Source: a virus. From it: a stretch of DNA of 23,372 nucleotides. This document shows positions 1 to 21,624 of the stretch, piece by piece; the first letter of the stretch is position 1; every line of letters begins with the position of its first letter. The stretch lies in the IMG/VR virus record IMGVR_UViG_3300042320_000043, positions 1-23,372 of that record. The stretch is one strand, 5' to 3'. Under the pieces are notes generated by a model. That model had not been told where the DNA came from. It saw only the letters and a program-made list of their open reading frames with translations, and did not search any database. Both the position numbers and the translations under genes were made by a program.

Positions 1-801
1 GAAAATCACCTCGCTGGTGTTGCCGGCCCATGCAGCCACCTGTGGCACTGGGATTCCGGCTTCAATCCAGCGGCTGATTGCCGTATGCCTGCAGTCGTAC
101 GGACGGTACAGGTGGGAGATCAACCCAGCGCCATGCAACGGCTGCAGCTTTTTACGGAAGTAACTCTGAAACGCCACTCGATTCCACGGGAAGATGCACT
201 CGTTTTCCTGTGGCAGTTGCTCAAGGATGGCTCGGCATTTGCTGTTCAACGGCACCCATCGCTTCTTGTTGGTTTTAGTGCTGTCTTTATAGCCGTGTGT
301 AAGTGTCCAGTTGCTATGTACAAGGATCTTGTTTTCCTTGATGTCTGACCATCTCAAAGCTCGCACCTCACCAGTACGCATTGCAGTTTGCAGCATGAAC
401 TCGGTGTACCACGACCAGTTGACATCTTGATAGCTGCATTTTGCAGCAAGTGCAGCAAGCACTATGCCGACTTCATTGCGTGGTATTACGACAATCTCCT
501 CGTCTTTTTGCGGCGCCTTCGGCATTTTGAAGCTGGCCAGCGGGTTGCGCTCTAGGTAGCCAACATCCTCTTGCGCCGCCCACTTGTACATGCTTTTGGT
601 GTACATCGCCACGCGCCGTGACGACAGCACAGGCTTTTCGCCTAGGACCCAGATCATCACCTGTCTTGCGTGGCTGAGGTCCTGCACAGGACATCGAATC
701 AACCACTTGCGAACCTGCCGGTAGTCAGAGGTAAGGCTTGTTGGGCACAAGGCAATAGAACGCTCAGCGAGGAAGGCGTCCCAGAGTTCTACAAGTGTCA
801 T
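1..801 (-). CDS. int: Tyrosine recombinase (phage integrase), C-terminus cut by window edge
   Basis: A continuous open frame of 267 codons runs from ATG at 801 to base 1 with no stop, so the C-terminus is missing. It is a tyrosine-type site-specific recombinase that would integrate or excise phage DNA. The N-terminal part (about 1-95) is helical and fits a SAM-like core-binding domain. The catalytic domain is clear: MRTGEVRALRW holds Arg I (R142), KDSTKTNKKRWVPL holds the beta-hairpin lysine, and PYDCRHTAISRW holds Arg II (R238). Two positions vary from the usual pattern: the His of HxxR is Tyr235, and the usual GH of the last box is G-N (N261). The nucleophile Tyr lies just off the edge. The gene follows the tail operon on the same strand and makes the element temperate. 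A weak AGGG lies upstream of the start. Confidence 0.9.
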   Translation of the reverse strand, partial: MTLVELWDAFLAERSIALCPTSLTSDYRQVRKWLIRCPVQDLSHARQVMIWVLGEKPVLSSRRVAMYTKSMYKWAAQEDVGYLERNPLASFKMPKAPQKDEEIVVIPRNEVGIVLAALAAKCSYQDVNWSWYTEFMLQTAMRTGEVRALRWSDIKENKILVHSNWTLTHGYKDSTKTNKKRWVPLNSKCRAILEQLPQENECIFPWNRVAFQSYFRKKLQPLHGAGLISHLYRPYDCRHTAISRWIEAGIPVPQVAAWAGNTSEVIF

Positions 802-15710: not shown

Positions 15711-16976
15711 CTAGGCAAAAACCAGCTTGAATTCGTCGTTGCCGTTGGTCGATGGCGTTGCCACATACGGGATGGAAAGGCCTTGGATGCTCTCTGCGTC
15801 TTCATAGTCAGGATCCACCAAGTCAATTCGGCTGGACAGCAGCGCCACCAGATTTCCAGCAGTCTTTCCATGGATGAAGGACAAATCACCTGCAGCGGGG
15901 TCGGTTGGATCTAGGTAAATACGCTCAGAATCTTCGTAAAGCAAATCGAAAGAATCCTCGGTCAATAAGGCGTCAACAGGGTCCATCTCGCCGCCCAGCG
16001 CTGCAGCGAAAAAATCCTTCCCACTGACCCCAGCCAAGACTGGCGCCTCTATTTCAACGCTGCCATTCACGTCACGACCCGTGATGAATACCTCCTCATG
16101 GCAATTGAGCAGATCACGAAAAATCAGTTCGTTGCCCAATTCCATGACGACTGATCGAAGACAGCCACGGAATCCAAGCAGGGCAAAAGCACCTGTGTTG
16201 CCAGCCTTGAAAATACTTGGCGGCCCCTGATTGGCATATGTCACCGCCGGCAACGCAGTATCCGTTGGAGGGTTGTAAATGCCGTTGAAAACAAACTCAA
16301 TGGCCGGTATCGAGCCCAAGTCCGCAACTACGGCACAGGTGCCCCTGCATCCGGTAATACGATGAAGCGTTCCATCAACATTGTAATAAATAGTTGTTGA
16401 CTGTGGATTGTCGCTAATAGGTTCGTAGATAGTGGAAACATCAATGCTGTAAACACTTGTACTGTCGTAAGTTGTATTGTTGTTCAAGGGTCGAATTGAT
16501 GCAACCTTACTGGCGCCGACATAATCAATAATCAGCCCAAGTGTTCCTTGCCCCAATCCGCCAGTCACTCGAATAATTCGGCCAACGTAAACACGCTCAA
16601 CCGAGCTAGCACTGGCATCAAGCGTGATTGCATTGACTCCACCCCCAGCCGCAGTGCCTGCAACCGGGCCGCTTGTCACTGTTTCGCTCAGCGAACAGGC
16701 CTTCAGCAGTGAGCTGAATTGTGGTGTCACTCCGACTACGCCGCTGCCTGTCAGCTCAACACTCATTGATACTTCGACACGAGTATTGGCCAGCAACTGC
16801 TCCGAAGCGCCGTAATACGGACGCACGGTCTCACGATCAACTACTTCGCTTTGCAGCGGAATAATTTCCAAGTCAAAAACGTGTATGGCATCAAAAGCTC
16901 CACTAGGAGCTGAATCAATGCCATACACGCCCTCAATTTTGGAAAGGATCAGTCGCTTCTTGGTAAGTTGCACCAT
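15711..16976 (-). CDS. Tail tube protein, second paralogue with octapeptide insert
   Basis: 421 aa. It aligns end to end with the 387-aa tube protein upstream: in the first 100 aligned residues I count about 60 identities, and the ends IPYVATPSTNGNDEFKLVFA / LPYTAIPSTAGNDEFRLVFA match. Shared motifs include VRPYYGASEQLLANTRVE, GCRGT, IFKAGNTGAF and LSFIHG. The family is the phage tail tube type (Phage_tube_2-like). The extra length is mainly an insert at about 330-362, which holds three octapeptide repeats. Codon use looks less biased and more AT-rich than in the first copy, so expression may be lower. It could be a decorated tube subunit, a minor subunit at one end of the tube, or a divergent copy under different selection. 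The gap to the first copy is only 24 nt. Confidence 0.88.
   Translation of the reverse strand: MVQLTKKRLILSKIEGVYGIDSAPSGAFDAIHVFDLEIIPLQSEVVDRETVRPYYGASEQLLANTRVEVSMSVELTGSGVVGVTPQFSSLLKACSLSETVTSGPVAGTAAGGGVNAITLDASASSVERVYVGRIIRVTGGLGQGTLGLIIDYVGASKVASIRPLNNNTTYDSTSVYSIDVSTIYEPISDNPQSTTIYYNVDGTLHRITGCRGTCAVVADLGSIPAIEFVFNGIYNPPTDTALPAVTYANQGPPSIFKAGNTGAFALLGFRGCLRSVVMELGNELIFRDLLNCHEEVFITGRDVNGSVEIEAPVLAGVSGKDFFAAALGGEMDPVDALLTEDSFDLLYEDSERIYLDPTDPAAGDLSFIHGKTAGNLVALLSSRIDLVDPDYEDAESIQGLSIPYVATPSTNGNDEFKLVFA
15906..15974 (-). repeat. Three octapeptide repeats in the second tail tube protein
   Basis: Residues 335-357 read as D + ALLTEDSF + DLLYEDSE + RIYLDP. Acidic residues fall 8 apart at 340, 348 and 356, and the block ends in LDP, as the gpL block ends in LEP. 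The 387-aa paralogue lacks the block and goes directly from AALTDGTLGE to LSFIHG. Confidence 0.75.
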
Positions 16977-17000: not shown

Positions 17001-18164
17001 CTAGGCGAAGACGAGCCTAAACTCGTCATTACCAGCCGTGCTCGGGATTGCCGTGTAAGGCAGCGACAGCATGTGAATGCCATCTTGATCCTGATAGCTG
17101 GGGTCACCGATGTCCACGCGGGTGGACTGCAACGCCACGATGTTGCCACCAGTGGTGCCATGGATGAATGAAAGCTCACCCAGGGTGCCGTCAGTCAACG
17201 CAGCAGTGAAATAGTCCTTCTGCGCGATGGTCGGTGCCTCGATCACAACCGTGCCAGTGGTGGCGCGATCAGTGATCAGCACTTCCTTGGTGCAGCCCAC
17301 CAGCTCCCGATACACCGTGCTGTTGCCCAGGTCCATCGAAACAGACTGGAGGCAGCCGCTGTAATCCAGCAGGGTGAAGGCACCGCTGTTACCAGCCTTG
17401 AAGATCCGAGGCGTTGCCTGATCGGCGTAGGTGACGCTCGGCGCAGCAGTGTCGGTCGGAGCGTTGTAAACCCCGGTCATCGTGAAGTCGATGGTCGGGA
17501 TTTCGCCAACAGCAGTGTTGATCGAGAACGTGCCACGGCAACCAGTGAGCTTGTGCAGCACACCGTCAATGTTGTAGTGAAGCGTCACCGAACCAAACGT
17601 GGAACTCACCGGGGTGTAAACCACGTGAGCGTCAATGCTGTAAACGCTGGTGTTATTCAGGGTCACCGCAGCGCCAATGGAACGCAGCGTGGCGACCTTG
17701 GTCGAGCCAACGTAATCGGTGATCAAGAACACCGAGCCAACGCCAAGACCAGAAGTGATGCGAATCACTTGGCCGTTGTAAAAGTCGTTGTTGGAGCTAG
17801 CGCCAGCAGCCAAGGTGATGCTGTTGGAGCCACCAGCAGTGGCAGTGCCGGTCACAGCAGGCGAAACAGTCGTCTCAGCCAAAGCACATGCCTTGAGCAC
17901 CTTGCCAAAGCGTGGCGCGGTGCCAGCAGTGCCACTGCCAGCCAGTTCCACGCTGAAGGTGCATTCAACGCGAGTGTTGGCGAGCAGTTGCTCGGATGCA
18001 CCCAGATAGGGTCGCACCAGATCGCGGTTGACCACATCACTCTGCTGAGGAGTGATGTTCAGATCCCGCACCAAAATGGCATCAGCGCCATCGGGCGAAG
18101 GGTCAACCCCGTAGCTGGACTCCGTCTCCGCCAGAATCAGGCGTTTGCGTGTCAGAAGTGGCAT
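17001..18164 (-). CDS. Major tail tube protein, first paralogue
   Basis: 387 aa, in the position of lambda V (246 aa). It polymerises around the tape measure into the tail tube. The N-terminus RKRLILAETESSYGVDPSP, then VRDLNITPQQSDVVNRDLVRPYLGASEQL, is typical of the longer tail tube family (Phage_tube_2-like). The middle holds the GVGSVFLITDYVGSTKVATL region and YNIDGVLHKLTGCRGT; the end is AIPSTAGNDEFRLVFA. AGAGG lies about 9 nt before ATG 18164, inside the preceding gene, which overlaps this one by 62 nt. Codon choice is strongly biased toward C/G-ending codons like the capsid gene, which fits an abundant structural protein. I take this copy to be the main tube subunit. Confidence 0.92.
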   Translation of the reverse strand: MPLLTRKRLILAETESSYGVDPSPDGADAILVRDLNITPQQSDVVNRDLVRPYLGASEQLLANTRVECTFSVELAGSGTAGTAPRFGKVLKACALAETTVSPAVTGTATAGGSNSITLAAGASSNNDFYNGQVIRITSGLGVGSVFLITDYVGSTKVATLRSIGAAVTLNNTSVYSIDAHVVYTPVSSTFGSVTLHYNIDGVLHKLTGCRGTFSINTAVGEIPTIDFTMTGVYNAPTDTAAPSVTYADQATPRIFKAGNSGAFTLLDYSGCLQSVSMDLGNSTVYRELVGCTKEVLITDRATTGTVVIEAPTIAQKDYFTAALTDGTLGELSFIHGTTGGNIVALQSTRVDIGDPSYQDQDGIHMLSLPYTAIPSTAGNDEFRLVFA

Positions 18165-18339: not shown

Positions 18340-18761
18340 GCTGTGAGATCCGCGACTTGCGTGCGATAAAGCACGTCGTACTCACAAGAGATTACTCCGG
18401 CAGGCTGATCAGCCTCAACCATATTGAAAGTCGTCAAAGCTGGCTGGATGTCAATTGCCAGTCCGCCCAATGTCAGATCAGCCATTAACTTGCTGTGCAT
18501 ATCCACAATTGTTGGGTCAGCAAGTTGATCAGGCACGTTGCCACGCACGATCACCACCACACGAACGCGCATGGTCGCATCTAGCTTTGGCAGGCTGGTG
18601 TTCTGTTCATACGTGATCGTCGCAGGCTCAATCACAATCGCAGGCGTTTCAGCCCTCGCCATTGCTTCAACACGACTACGCCAGATCCGTGTACCAGCGC
18701 CTGCTGTTCCTTGCAATGCGGTGTAAATCGCTGCGAGGATTTGCTCTCGTTTACTTGCCAT
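18336..18761 (-). CDS. Tail terminator / completion protein, gpU-like
   Basis: 141 aa, near the length of lambda U (131 aa), and placed just before the tube genes. The sequence KREQILAAIYTALQGTAG...RIWRSRVEAMARAETPAIVIEP, then RVRVVVIVRGNVPDQLADPTIVDMHSKLMAD, is characteristic of the phage tail terminator families. In lambda, U forms a hexameric ring that stops tube growth and joins the tail to the head. It overlaps the preceding 49-aa gene by 11 nt and the next gene by ATGA. The assignment to U itself is by position and pattern. Confidence 0.78.
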   Translation of the reverse strand: MASKREQILAAIYTALQGTAGAGTRIWRSRVEAMARAETPAIVIEPATITYEQNTSLPKLDATMRVRVVVIVRGNVPDQLADPTIVDMHSKLMADLTLGGLAIDIQPALTTFNMVEADQPAGVISCEYDVLYRTQVADLTA

Positions 18762-18900
18762 TGATGAATCCCGGCGGACCTGGGTCGCAACCCTTAGTCA
18801 GTATCGCAACAGCACGCTTGTAGTAGTAGCAGTCCGTTTTACCTGCACGCTCTAAGGCTTCCTTCACCTTGGCCCAGTTGGCGCGGGTGTCGGCATCCAT
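18751..18900 (-). CDS. 49-aa protein of unknown function
   Basis: ATG at 18900 shares a base with the stop of the upstream gene (TAATG), and the end overlaps the tail terminator start by 11 nt. The coupling at both ends and the absence of a gap argue for a real gene. The product is MDADTRANWAKVKEALERAG, then KTDCYYYKRAVAILTKGCDPGPPGFINGK. It looks like a helix pair with a basic second half. Family not recognised. It could be a small assembly factor of the neck, the region its neighbours build. Confidence 0.75.
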   Translation of the reverse strand: MDADTRANWAKVKEALERAGKTDCYYYKRAVAILTKGCDPGPPGFINGK

Positions 18901-19517
18901 TACGCAACCTCAACAGCCACAAGCCGAGCCCGGCCAAGAGTGATGTCCACATTGCTGCTGTGGTTGGCAATGAACAGCGCCACCTCGTCGCCAGCAGCCA
19001 TGCTGATGATCCAATTGGTAACCAGCTTGGCTTCCTCCGCGCCGGAACCTGTAAAAGCGCGGCACTCGGTTTGATCTATGGCAGTGCCATTCTTAGCCAG
19101 TTTGATACCGAGGATCTTGTTGTTGCCGCTGACAGTTTTGGCGTCGATGCTGCCGTAGATCTGCATCAGCTTGGTGCTGCCGCTAGTGTTCTTCACCGCA
19201 AATGCGTTGGTGGTGCCAAGCGTCATGCCGTTGGCTGTGGTGCTGTCAAAGGTGCCAGTAAGACCAGTGGAAACGTAGACGCCCTGCGTAACTATGTCGA
19301 TGGTGCCAGCGTCCATCTTGCTCACCTGGCCGCGCACCACCGCCCCTGCCGCTGTTAAGTAATAAGACAATGCAGACCAAGCGCTGCTGCCATTACCGAC
19401 CTTGAAGTTGCGGGTGTCAGTCTCGATGCCAACCTCCCCCAACAAAAGCACGGGATTCGCTGCTGTCCATGCAGAGGCTGTATCACGCCGAAGCCGAAGT
19501 CGTGCTGTGCTGCTCAT
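18900..19517 (-). CDS. Virion protein with Mtd-like N-terminal domain
   Basis: 205 aa. The first 50 residues (ARLRLRRDTASAWTAANPVLLLGEVGIETDTRNFKVGNGSSAWSAL) match the N-terminal domain first known in the Bordetella phage Mtd protein and in many fibres. There it serves as a virion attachment domain. The rest (60-205) is Thr/Ser/Gly-rich and beta-like (GTFDSTTANGMTLGTTN, MQIYGSIDAKTVSGNNKILGIKLAKNG, SMAAGDEVALFIAN) and resembles TNF-like jelly-roll folds of fibre tips. It lies between the head-tail joining protein and the tail terminator, so a neck or head appendage is a reasonable guess. It overlaps the joining gene by ATGA. Function is inferred. Confidence 0.78.
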   Translation of the reverse strand: MSSTARLRLRRDTASAWTAANPVLLLGEVGIETDTRNFKVGNGSSAWSALSYYLTAAGAVVRGQVSKMDAGTIDIVTQGVYVSTGLTGTFDSTTANGMTLGTTNAFAVKNTSGSTKLMQIYGSIDAKTVSGNNKILGIKLAKNGTAIDQTECRAFTGSGAEEAKLVTNWIISMAAGDEVALFIANHSSNVDITLGRARLVAVEVA

Positions 19518-19951
19518 GCCGCCCCGCTGTCAAATACGTTCTCATCAGCGTAAACGGTACTTGCGCCACCACCGTCAACAACAGAGTCGAGCTGCACCAC
19601 GGGTGCTACCGGAATATCGCTATCAGCATCATCACCATTGATCGGCGTGAAACTCGTCTGATATGGCGTCTCAACAGAACGCTGAAGCATCAACTCGACA
19701 AACTTGCCGTCATCCATAAATTGCACATTCCGCACCGTGTAAGCCGCGCCATTGACCGAAACCTGCGAGCCGTTCAACAGATCGCCAAACTCAGATGCCT
19801 TTGCTGTCACCTTGTAGTCCGTAGTCAAGATCACGCCATCAGCGATGATCTCGCTTGGCATATCAAAAATGCCAATGCCGCTTACATCGCCTGCCGTTAC
19901 TGGCACGCCGAAATCGGCCAAAAACAGATCCAGGTCTTCGCTGAATGCCAT
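19514..19951 (-). CDS. Head-tail joining protein, gpFII-like
   Basis: 145 aa, against 117 in lambda FII. The first about 100 residues fit the family: MAFSEDLDLFLADFGVPVTAG, then ILTTDYKVTAKASEFGDLLNGSQVSVNGAAYTVRNVQFMDDGKFVELMLQ. This protein docks to the portal ring and accepts the tail. The last about 45 residues (TSFTPINGDDADSDIPVAPVVQLDSV) are an acidic extension outside the usual domain and could bind the next protein in the neck. The start at 19951 has no clear Shine-Dalgarno. It lies 43 nt from the divergent plus-strand gene, so its transcription must come through that gene in antisense or from a local promoter. Confidence 0.83.
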   Translation of the reverse strand: MAFSEDLDLFLADFGVPVTAGDVSGIGIFDMPSEIIADGVILTTDYKVTAKASEFGDLLNGSQVSVNGAAYTVRNVQFMDDGKFVELMLQRSVETPYQTSFTPINGDDADSDIPVAPVVQLDSVVDGGGASTVYADENVFDSGAA

Positions 19952-19994
19952 GACTACATGGTAGCGGCCTCGCTATTGTTCAGCCACTGGTGGT

Positions 19995-20321
19995 GTGGCA
20001 ATGCTTTCAACCAAGTACCGCCTGCGCCTGGAAGCAATCTGTGCCCGCATTGCAGCGCAGCAACCAGTCGAGCTGCAAGATCGCATCTGGGCAAACAAGC
20101 TTGGCGAGGTCAATCGCACTGCAGCCTCAATGCTGCGGCAAGCGCAACGCCGAGCGCAAAACCCTGAAATGCACGAAGGAAGCCTTGATGACTTCCTCAA
20201 TCAACTTGACATCGGAGGAGTTGGCGACGAAGCCAAGGGCATTCGTCGTTTCAACAGCCCAGATGAAATCGCAGACTTCTTTCGGCAAGACAAACCTGAG
20301 GACTGGCGGCAGCGAGACTGA
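19995..20321 (+). CDS. Antiparallel embedded gene, unknown function (108 aa)
   Basis: This is the only convincing plus-strand gene. The start is GTG 19995 or ATG 20001 (MLSTKYRLRLEAICARIAAQQ); the latter is more usual, and neither has a clear ribosome binding site. The product is helical and charged: LQDRIWANKLGEVNRTAASMLRQAQRRAQNP, then GSLDDFLNQLDIGG, then FNSPDEIADFFRQDKPEDWRQRD. Composition is that of a real soluble protein, unlike the Arg/Ser/Cys-rich minus frame across the same bases. It fills exactly the 370-nt gap in the minus-strand operon. Its TGA abuts the opposing TGA in the palindrome TGATCA. No family is recognised. A moron-type gene expressed in the lysogen, or a regulator, are possible. 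Confidence 0.78.
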   Translation: MAMLSTKYRLRLEAICARIAAQQPVELQDRIWANKLGEVNRTAASMLRQAQRRAQNPEMHEGSLDDFLNQLDIGGVGDEAKGIRRFNSPDEIADFFRQDKPEDWRQRD

Positions 20322-20474
20322 TCAGAATTCGCAGGCGATGGTATCGCCGCTTTCCATCAACAAGTAGTCGCCATTTTCCAGCTGGAAATGGCTGACGACT
20401 ATCAGCGTCAAGTTGTAGATCATGTCAAGAGCGCCAGGACCTAAAAGCCCACGGCCACGCAGCAGATCTTCCAT
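20322..20474 (-). CDS. 50-aa peptide with acidic octad motif
   Basis: ATG at 20474 follows the stop of the upstream gene by one base (TGA C ATG). The product is MEDLLRGRGLLGPGALDMIY, then NLTLIVVSHFQLENGDYLL and MESGDTIACEF. The last third has LENGDYLLMESGD, where ENGD and ESGD lie 8 residues apart, like the octads in gpL and the second tube protein. The stop abuts that of the convergent plus-strand gene. Coupling and the shared motif support a real gene, although it is short. It may be a virion peptide; no function can be assigned. Confidence 0.65.
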   Translation of the reverse strand: MEDLLRGRGLLGPGALDMIYNLTLIVVSHFQLENGDYLLMESGDTIACEF

Positions 20475-20475
20475 G

Positions 20476-20814
20476 TCACATCGTCCCCACCTTGCAGCTA
20501 ACCGTTGGCGTGCCGCCAGTAATAGACACCAGCCTCAGTCTTACGAATGACACAGGTGCCATCAGGTAATAGGCGGTCGTGCCATTCGCTGAAAGTGTCG
20601 TATCGGTATTCGTGGCGTTCAGGTTGAAATAATTCGTGCCATCCAGGCTCCCCTCAAGCCGAATAACGACACTCGTTCCCACATCAGCCAACGTCACCTG
20701 AAAGGTCAGTGTTGCGCCAGTTGTCGCCTGAGCAGTGGTGACACCAGTTCCACTCAGCGAGCCAAGGTCAGCAACGTCAAAAATGCTGTTATACCCAAAA
20801 GGCACATGCGTCAT
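20476..20814 (-). CDS. Small beta-rich virion protein (112 aa)
   Basis: AGAGGATGAC precedes ATG 20814. The product is Thr/Gly/Ser-rich with alternating hydrophobic strands: TLTFQVTLADVGTSVVIRLEGSLDGTNYFNL, NTDTTLSANGTTAYYLMAPVSFVRLRLVSITGG. The [V]RLEGSLDGTNYxxL and VRLRLVSITGG pattern occurs in small phage structural proteins with a sandwich fold. It is similar in style to the 136-aa protein upstream and could be a distant relative. Position after the capsid suggests decoration of the capsid or neck. A terminator-like hairpin lies between this gene and the previous one, so its dosage may be lower. Confidence 0.75.
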   Translation of the reverse strand: MTHVPFGYNSIFDVADLGSLSGTGVTTAQATTGATLTFQVTLADVGTSVVIRLEGSLDGTNYFNLNATNTDTTLSANGTTAYYLMAPVSFVRLRLVSITGGTPTVSCKVGTM

Positions 20815-20851
20815 GTCATCCTCTTTGCTACCAACAGCCTACCAATGGAAA

Positions 20852-20879
20852 GCCCCACCCCACTTGAGTGGGATGGGGC
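20852..20879 (-). terminator. Hairpin after the 136-aa capsid-region gene
   Basis: On the minus strand GCCCCATCCCACT, TG or CA at the loop, and AGTGGGGTGGGGC form a 13-position stem with one mismatch, followed by TTTCC. It begins 17 nt after the stop at 20896. The T-tract is short, so it may be a partial terminator or an RNA end protecting the capsid transcript. Confidence 0.6.
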
Positions 20880-20895
20880 AACCAATCACTCAAGA

Positions 20896-21306
20896 TCAGG
20901 CGTACTTCAGCACGGCAACAGCATTGACGCTATAGACATGAGTCGAGGTGTCCACAGTGGACACAGCCTTGATCCAGCGCTTGGCAACACCCTTGGGGAA
21001 CACCAGGAACTGCTTAGAGGCAGTGGTGCTCACCTGAGCGAAGGCAACAGTGCCGGAAGCCTGCTCAACGCCACCACGGCTGAACACAGTGGTGATGTCG
21101 GTGTAATCTCCTGACTCAGTGTCAGAAGACTGCAGCTTCACGTTCAGGGTCGAAGTACCACCGTTGGCGACATCAAGAATTACGACGACATCGCCTTCGT
21201 AGTTCTTCATGTCAACGGCAGTGCCGTTAAGAGCGCTGGTGCGGCTTGCAGTAGGCGCAAACGCAACATGAGACAGTTTTTCCAGACCAGTAGAAAGAAT
21301 GGCCAT
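20896..21306 (-). CDS. Putative capsid decoration-type protein (136 aa)
   Basis: A perfect AAGGAG lies 7 nt before ATG 21306, and codon use is strongly biased, both signs of high expression. The sequence is beta-rich: MAILSTGLEKLSHVAFAPTA, YEGDVVVILDVANGGTSTLNVKLQSSDTESGDYTDI, then TASKQFLVFPKGVAKRWIKAV and VYSVNAVAVLKYA. In siphophages a small abundant beta protein just after the capsid gene is often the head decoration protein, which is why I suggest that role. No specific family match can be claimed. It is followed directly by a terminator-like hairpin, consistent with a capsid-module transcript ending here. Confidence 0.78.
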   Translation of the reverse strand: MAILSTGLEKLSHVAFAPTASRTSALNGTAVDMKNYEGDVVVILDVANGGTSTLNVKLQSSDTESGDYTDITTVFSRGGVEQASGTVAFAQVSTTASKQFLVFPKGVAKRWIKAVSTVDTSTHVYSVNAVAVLKYA

Positions 21307-21309
21307 GAT

Positions 21310-21624
21310 TTACTCCTTGGAGGAACGGGGTTTGCGGGTACGTCGCATGGACGCATTTTCCACGACCTCCACAACTTCTTCAGGAGCAAGCTCCTCTTCA
21401 GTTTGGAGTGTGGTCTCCACTGGCTCAAGCACAGGCTCAAGCTCAGTGGCAACTTCAGGCGCGATCTCAACAGGTGCGGTTTCTGCTGACAGCCCCTCCA
21501 CCACCGCAGCGGCTTTATTGGAGCTGATCAGCAGAAAGGCATCATTTGCCTCCAGATCAAGGATGGAGCCCACCTCGGCGGGCTCTCCTTTGATCATTAC
21601 GCCTCGCAGGATCTCAACCTTCAT
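21310..21624 (-). CDS. Conserved small capsid-region protein (104 aa)
   Basis: The N-terminal half MKVEILRGVMIKGEPAEVGSILDLEANDAFLLISSNKAAAV is the compact beta domain of small proteins often found right after phage capsid genes; there it is of unknown function. The rest is a Glu/Val-rich, low-complexity tail (PVEIAPEVATELEPVLEPVETT) ending in a basic patch, RRTRKPRSSKE. The start lies 5 nt after the capsid stop and the end 3 nt before the next start. A role in head completion is inferred from position only. Confidence 0.8.
   Translation of the reverse strand: MKVEILRGVMIKGEPAEVGSILDLEANDAFLLISSNKAAAVVEGLSAETAPVEIAPEVATELEPVLEPVETTLQTEEELAPEEVVEVVENASMRRTRKPRSSKE

Follow-up and report, generated by a model that had tools for sequence, protein, structure and literature searches.

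The lone plus-strand gene of the window (the whole 23,372-nucleotide stretch of IMG/VR record IMGVR_UViG_3300042320_000043 that was analysed) is best explained, with a probability of about 0.6, as a portable, self-promoted late cyanophage gene encoding a small helical protein directed at the picocyanobacterial host and not at the virion. The reading frame at 19995-20321 (+) was found to be open for 108 codons amid minus-strand head and tail genes, and by its profile match the product is a member of a known family, phrog_507 / T4-GC 49, rather than an orphan. The features of the region are as follows.

18762-18910, minus strand: alternative slot, empty in the window, where the tail-fibre stop runs into a small ORF ahead of the tail terminator gene
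19514-19951, minus strand: head-closure gene of the Hc1 / Phage_attach kind, pointing away from the opposed gene
19951-20000, plus strand: 50-base leader that appears to move with the opposed gene between two sites, 34/50 identical to L011 and to L012 without gaps
19973-19980, plus strand: candidate -10-like element [CT]TAT[CT][GT]TT, the sole plus-strand copy in the window
20001-20321, plus strand: opposed gene of the phrog_507 / T4-GC 49 family, 106 aa from ATG 20001
20319-20324, both strands: TGATCA, the abutting convergent stop codons
20322-20474, minus strand: 50-aa late-operon ORF converging on the opposed gene, kept in relatives (72-100%)
20852-20879, minus strand: strong terminator-like hairpin from a simple scan, inside the late operon and upstream of the opposed gene in the late direction

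The GTG at 19995, taken as the start in the original prediction, gives a protein two codons longer than ATG 20001. The latter is most likely the true start, since the homologues begin at MLST, and it lies 49 bases from the start of the head-closure (Hc1)-like gene at 19951. Relatives covering 80% or more of the protein's length were found in 460 phage records. Substitutions were concentrated at third codon positions (10/6/50 against L011, for example) and dN/dS against relatives was about 0.05-0.1, which points to strong purifying selection at the protein level. The codon score exceeded that of all but one of 336 antisense stretches of neighbouring window genes, and the antisense frames of the gene were interrupted by stops in every relative tested. 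The breadth of relatives, the third-position differences and the codon score together confirm, as far as sequence comparison goes, a real protein gene beyond chance. The plus-strand gene predicted in a gap of the minus operon is thereby borne out, as is the meeting of its stop with the opposing stop in TGATCA (TGA at 20319-20321 and TCA at 20322-20324); frequent in-frame stops were looked for among the relatives and not found.

Residues 3-108 of the opposed protein were found to match positions 1-104 of the 104-position phrog_507 profile (E 1.7e-37), that is, over its full length, and two alignments showed the presence of all the invariant residues of the family (YRLRL, IWA.KL, DDF.N and DWRQ). 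The protein had been described from the sequence as having no known family, with a sensitive profile search proposed; that search was run, and the description no longer holds. No match was found in NCBIfam, none above the cut-off in Pfam, and a literature search for the family by name returned no relevant papers. Members are annotated as T4-GC 49 in S-PM2 (S-PM2p212) and S-SM2, following clusters defined earlier (PMC3037559), and as gp136 in Syn9; every record inspected called the product hypothetical or gave it no more than a number. Judged by name and genome size, nearly all of the 460 records were T4-like cyanophages, with a distant copy in the siphovirus S-CBS2, and among named isolates the family was confined to phages that infect Synechococcus or Prochlorococcus. 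Among cyanophage-named records, phrog_507 was present in about 454, against about 470 for gp23 and about 450 for cobS, these being totals and not figures matched record by record. Since the totals are comparable, the family is near-core in T4-like cyanophages, with about the prevalence of their capsid gene.

The phrog_507 proteins of T4-like isolates (S-PM2p212, Syn9 gp136) were found to be about 45-62% identical to the window protein and to share with it the MLST..YRLRL start and the DWRQRD end. The window gene differs from them in lying in a lambda-like siphovirus, opposed to its neighbours, in its leader and in being GC-rich (56%, against about 37-41% for L014 and L015). Two of the genome assemblies with family matches (L106, Nonlabens xiamenensis; L108, Euryarchaeota TMED129) were found to contain both T4-like cyanophage gp23 and phrog_507. 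A cellular origin of the family was considered from these matches and set aside; they are probably cyanophage contigs binned with bacterial or archaeal genomes.

The capsid, head-closure and tail genes place the window near the Synechococcus siphoviruses S-LBS1, S-CBS1 and S-CBS3, which share homologous proteins and a similar order of head and tail genes. By these genes the window phage is a lambda-like siphovirus of their kind, a type distinct from the T4-like cyanophages. The opposed gene is absent at the matching place in all three, unlike in the window, and none of them is among the phage-collection phrog_507 matches listed. An integrase-family (PF00589) ORF was found at window 1-801 (-), cut by the left window edge and beside a tail-fibre gene; the same ORF is present in the identical contig of L003, and an integrase is also present in S-LBS1. 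Because of this truncated ORF, the window phage may be temperate. Two adjacent tail genes, 15711-16976 and 17001-18164 (-), are about 53% identical and form a tandem duplication, of which L011, L013 and L125 match just one copy.

Among the IMG/VR relatives that share the late operon of the window, the opposed gene was limited to close relatives and occupied one of two slots. In the window type (L002-L010) the head-closure gene and the 50-aa ORF flank it; in L011/L204 and L012/L013 its neighbours are the tail fibre gene on one side and the tail terminator gene on the other. Direct reading of the window and L204 showed both slots to be compact and reciprocally empty, one being vacant where the other is filled, and in every siphovirus case the gene was antisense to the late operon. 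The siphovirus copies formed one clade (support 100/99) in a tree of few columns whose deeper branching is unsure; phylogenetically, a single siphovirus lineage is shown to have gained phrog_507 once. In L007 (3390-3958), the head-closure and fibre genes were found to be swapped for alleles 55-62% identical, with the adjoining opposed gene 99% identical and a sharp recombination border at its leader.

Identity between the leaders of the two slots (34/50) compares with at most 25/50 in shuffles, followed by only 15/50 in the next 50 bases, and none of the other loci compared contained the leader sequence. Because some 50 upstream bases align without gaps between the slots and the next 50 do not, the leader is read as promoter-bearing and co-moving. 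Leader and gene would thus travel together, and a promoter in the leader would give the gene a transcript independent of the late operon and running in the opposite direction. A consensus sigma-70 promoter was not found in the siphovirus leader. The motif [CT]TAT[CT][GT]TT stands in the siphovirus leaders at the distance at which T4-like leaders have their late promoter core, and by position and conservation it is a candidate -10-like element.

In the T4-like phages, 71 of the 85 distinct phrog_507 leaders, which are mutually related and so not 85 independent cases, were found to contain [ACT][TA]AAATA at -45 to -15, against 2.2 expected from background. Nearly all of these cores lie at -33 to -24, mostly at -27, and the same core precedes 9% of other long-ORF starts. 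It agrees with the published late promoter motif of cyanophages, NATAAATA (PMC2984593). About half of the leaders without the core sit directly behind gp135, mostly 1-3 bases away, in an operon-like arrangement. Most contigs with these leaders are fragments, gp23 being present in 4 of 23 such records tested, all four longer than 100 kb. The T4-like phrog_507 genes thus mostly carry their own T4-type late promoter core. At the window leader a NATAAATA-like T4-type (gp55-type) late core was not found, and CTATTGTT stands there instead.

The stop of the opposed gene abuts or overlaps the opposing gene, and a simple consensus scan of 18700-21400 found no plus-strand terminator-like site behind it. 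That late transcription must cross the gene in antisense, as first proposed, is plausible and not certain, for the hairpin at 20879-20852 (-) lies upstream. Similar hairpins were found ahead of the head-closure gene in L123 and L125. On account of these hairpins the late operon may give rise to several separate mRNAs, the number of terminator-like sites being not clearly above chance.

AlphaFold2 predicted a confident three-helix N-terminal domain (residues 1-53), the third helix being basic, and beyond the domain a less ordered and less certain stretch that ends in the conserved DKPEDWRQRD tail. A sequence search of solved structures returned nothing significant. The structure search suggested alongside the original prediction was run on the complete model and separately on just the three-helix domain, and neither gave a convincing match in the libraries; the best (VIA Z 3.0 and 4.8) fell in the range of common helical arrangements. 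A helix-turn-helix had been suspected from the basic third helix, and no match backs it.

In T4-like phages, phrog_507 was found at many unrelated genomic places, usually on the same strand as its neighbours, by a rough tally in which five siphovirus loci scored as "same" were opposed on direct reading. The small gene gp135 (phrog_1461, about 65 aa) often lies near it, upstream or downstream, as in the gp135-gp136 pair of Syn9 (L111, 3773-4312). It was considered as an obligate partner and rejected, being linked in just 37 of 100 loci. It was not found in the siphovirus clade loci, so that the window gene has no gp135 beside it, unlike many T4-like copies.

A lambdoid moron is one gene, equipped with a promoter, that has been inserted between genes of the phage; the window gene is likewise a single insert with a leader of its own, carried by some phages and missing from the corresponding site of relatives. 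Of the moron reading put forward in the original prediction, this anatomy (single insertion, 50-base leader, absence in relatives) stands, whereas lysogen-specific expression is disfavoured, the family being near-core in T4-like cyanophages and mostly equipped with a T4-type late promoter core. Unlike a moron, the window gene belongs to a family that is near-core in another, lytic phage group, and the consensus scan found no terminator behind it. A prophage gene driven by its own promoter and serving superinfection exclusion or anti-defence would suit the autonomous opposed cassette and the integrase ORFs of the window, L003 and S-LBS1. It is nevertheless unlikely given those late cores in lytic relatives, the result that no family among the PADLOC defence models matched the protein at E up to 1, and the absence of a demonstrated lysogen even in the case of S-LBS1 (PMC6157547).

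A late virion or assembly protein, such as a minor head or tail component or a chaperone, would agree with the late promoter core in T4-like phages and with the position of the gene between gp23 and gp3 in Syn9, behind baseplate genes in S-PM2 and adjoining a head gene in S-CBS2. The many unrelated places of the gene, and its sharing by contractile-tailed T4-like phages and lambda-like siphophages of differing virion architecture, make such a role improbable. The transcript might matter more than the protein, by tuning or protecting late mRNA as an antisense RNA; the gene is antisense in both siphovirus slots, and protection of phage mRNA by antisense transcription has been proposed for cyanophages (PMC10976474). 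Strong constraint at the protein level and the mostly same-strand placement in T4-like relatives weigh heavily against it, and it is the least probable of the readings. A late, host-directed function is preferred to a part in the virion: the gene is kept in two unrelated virion types, in many contexts and, among named isolates, in picocyanobacterial phages only. We infer the host target from this distribution.

As a late gene of this kind, the window copy would most likely be expressed in the lytic cycle, like its T4-like counterparts, and its product would probably be a small protein that binds, or serves as an adaptor to, a target in the picocyanobacterial host (nucleic acid or host protein) late in infection. 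More tentatively, phrog_507 might be a general late factor of picocyanobacterial host takeover across unrelated phages, spreading as a bare cassette of promoter and gene that stays autonomous wherever it is inserted, even against a late operon. A near-universal gene of T4-like Synechococcus and Prochlorococcus phages appears here to have its own promoter, to be of late type and to move between phage classes. The window phage, being of an unrelated type, holds a small, naturally isolated copy; this speaks for a host target and lets the function be tested away from the T4-like background.
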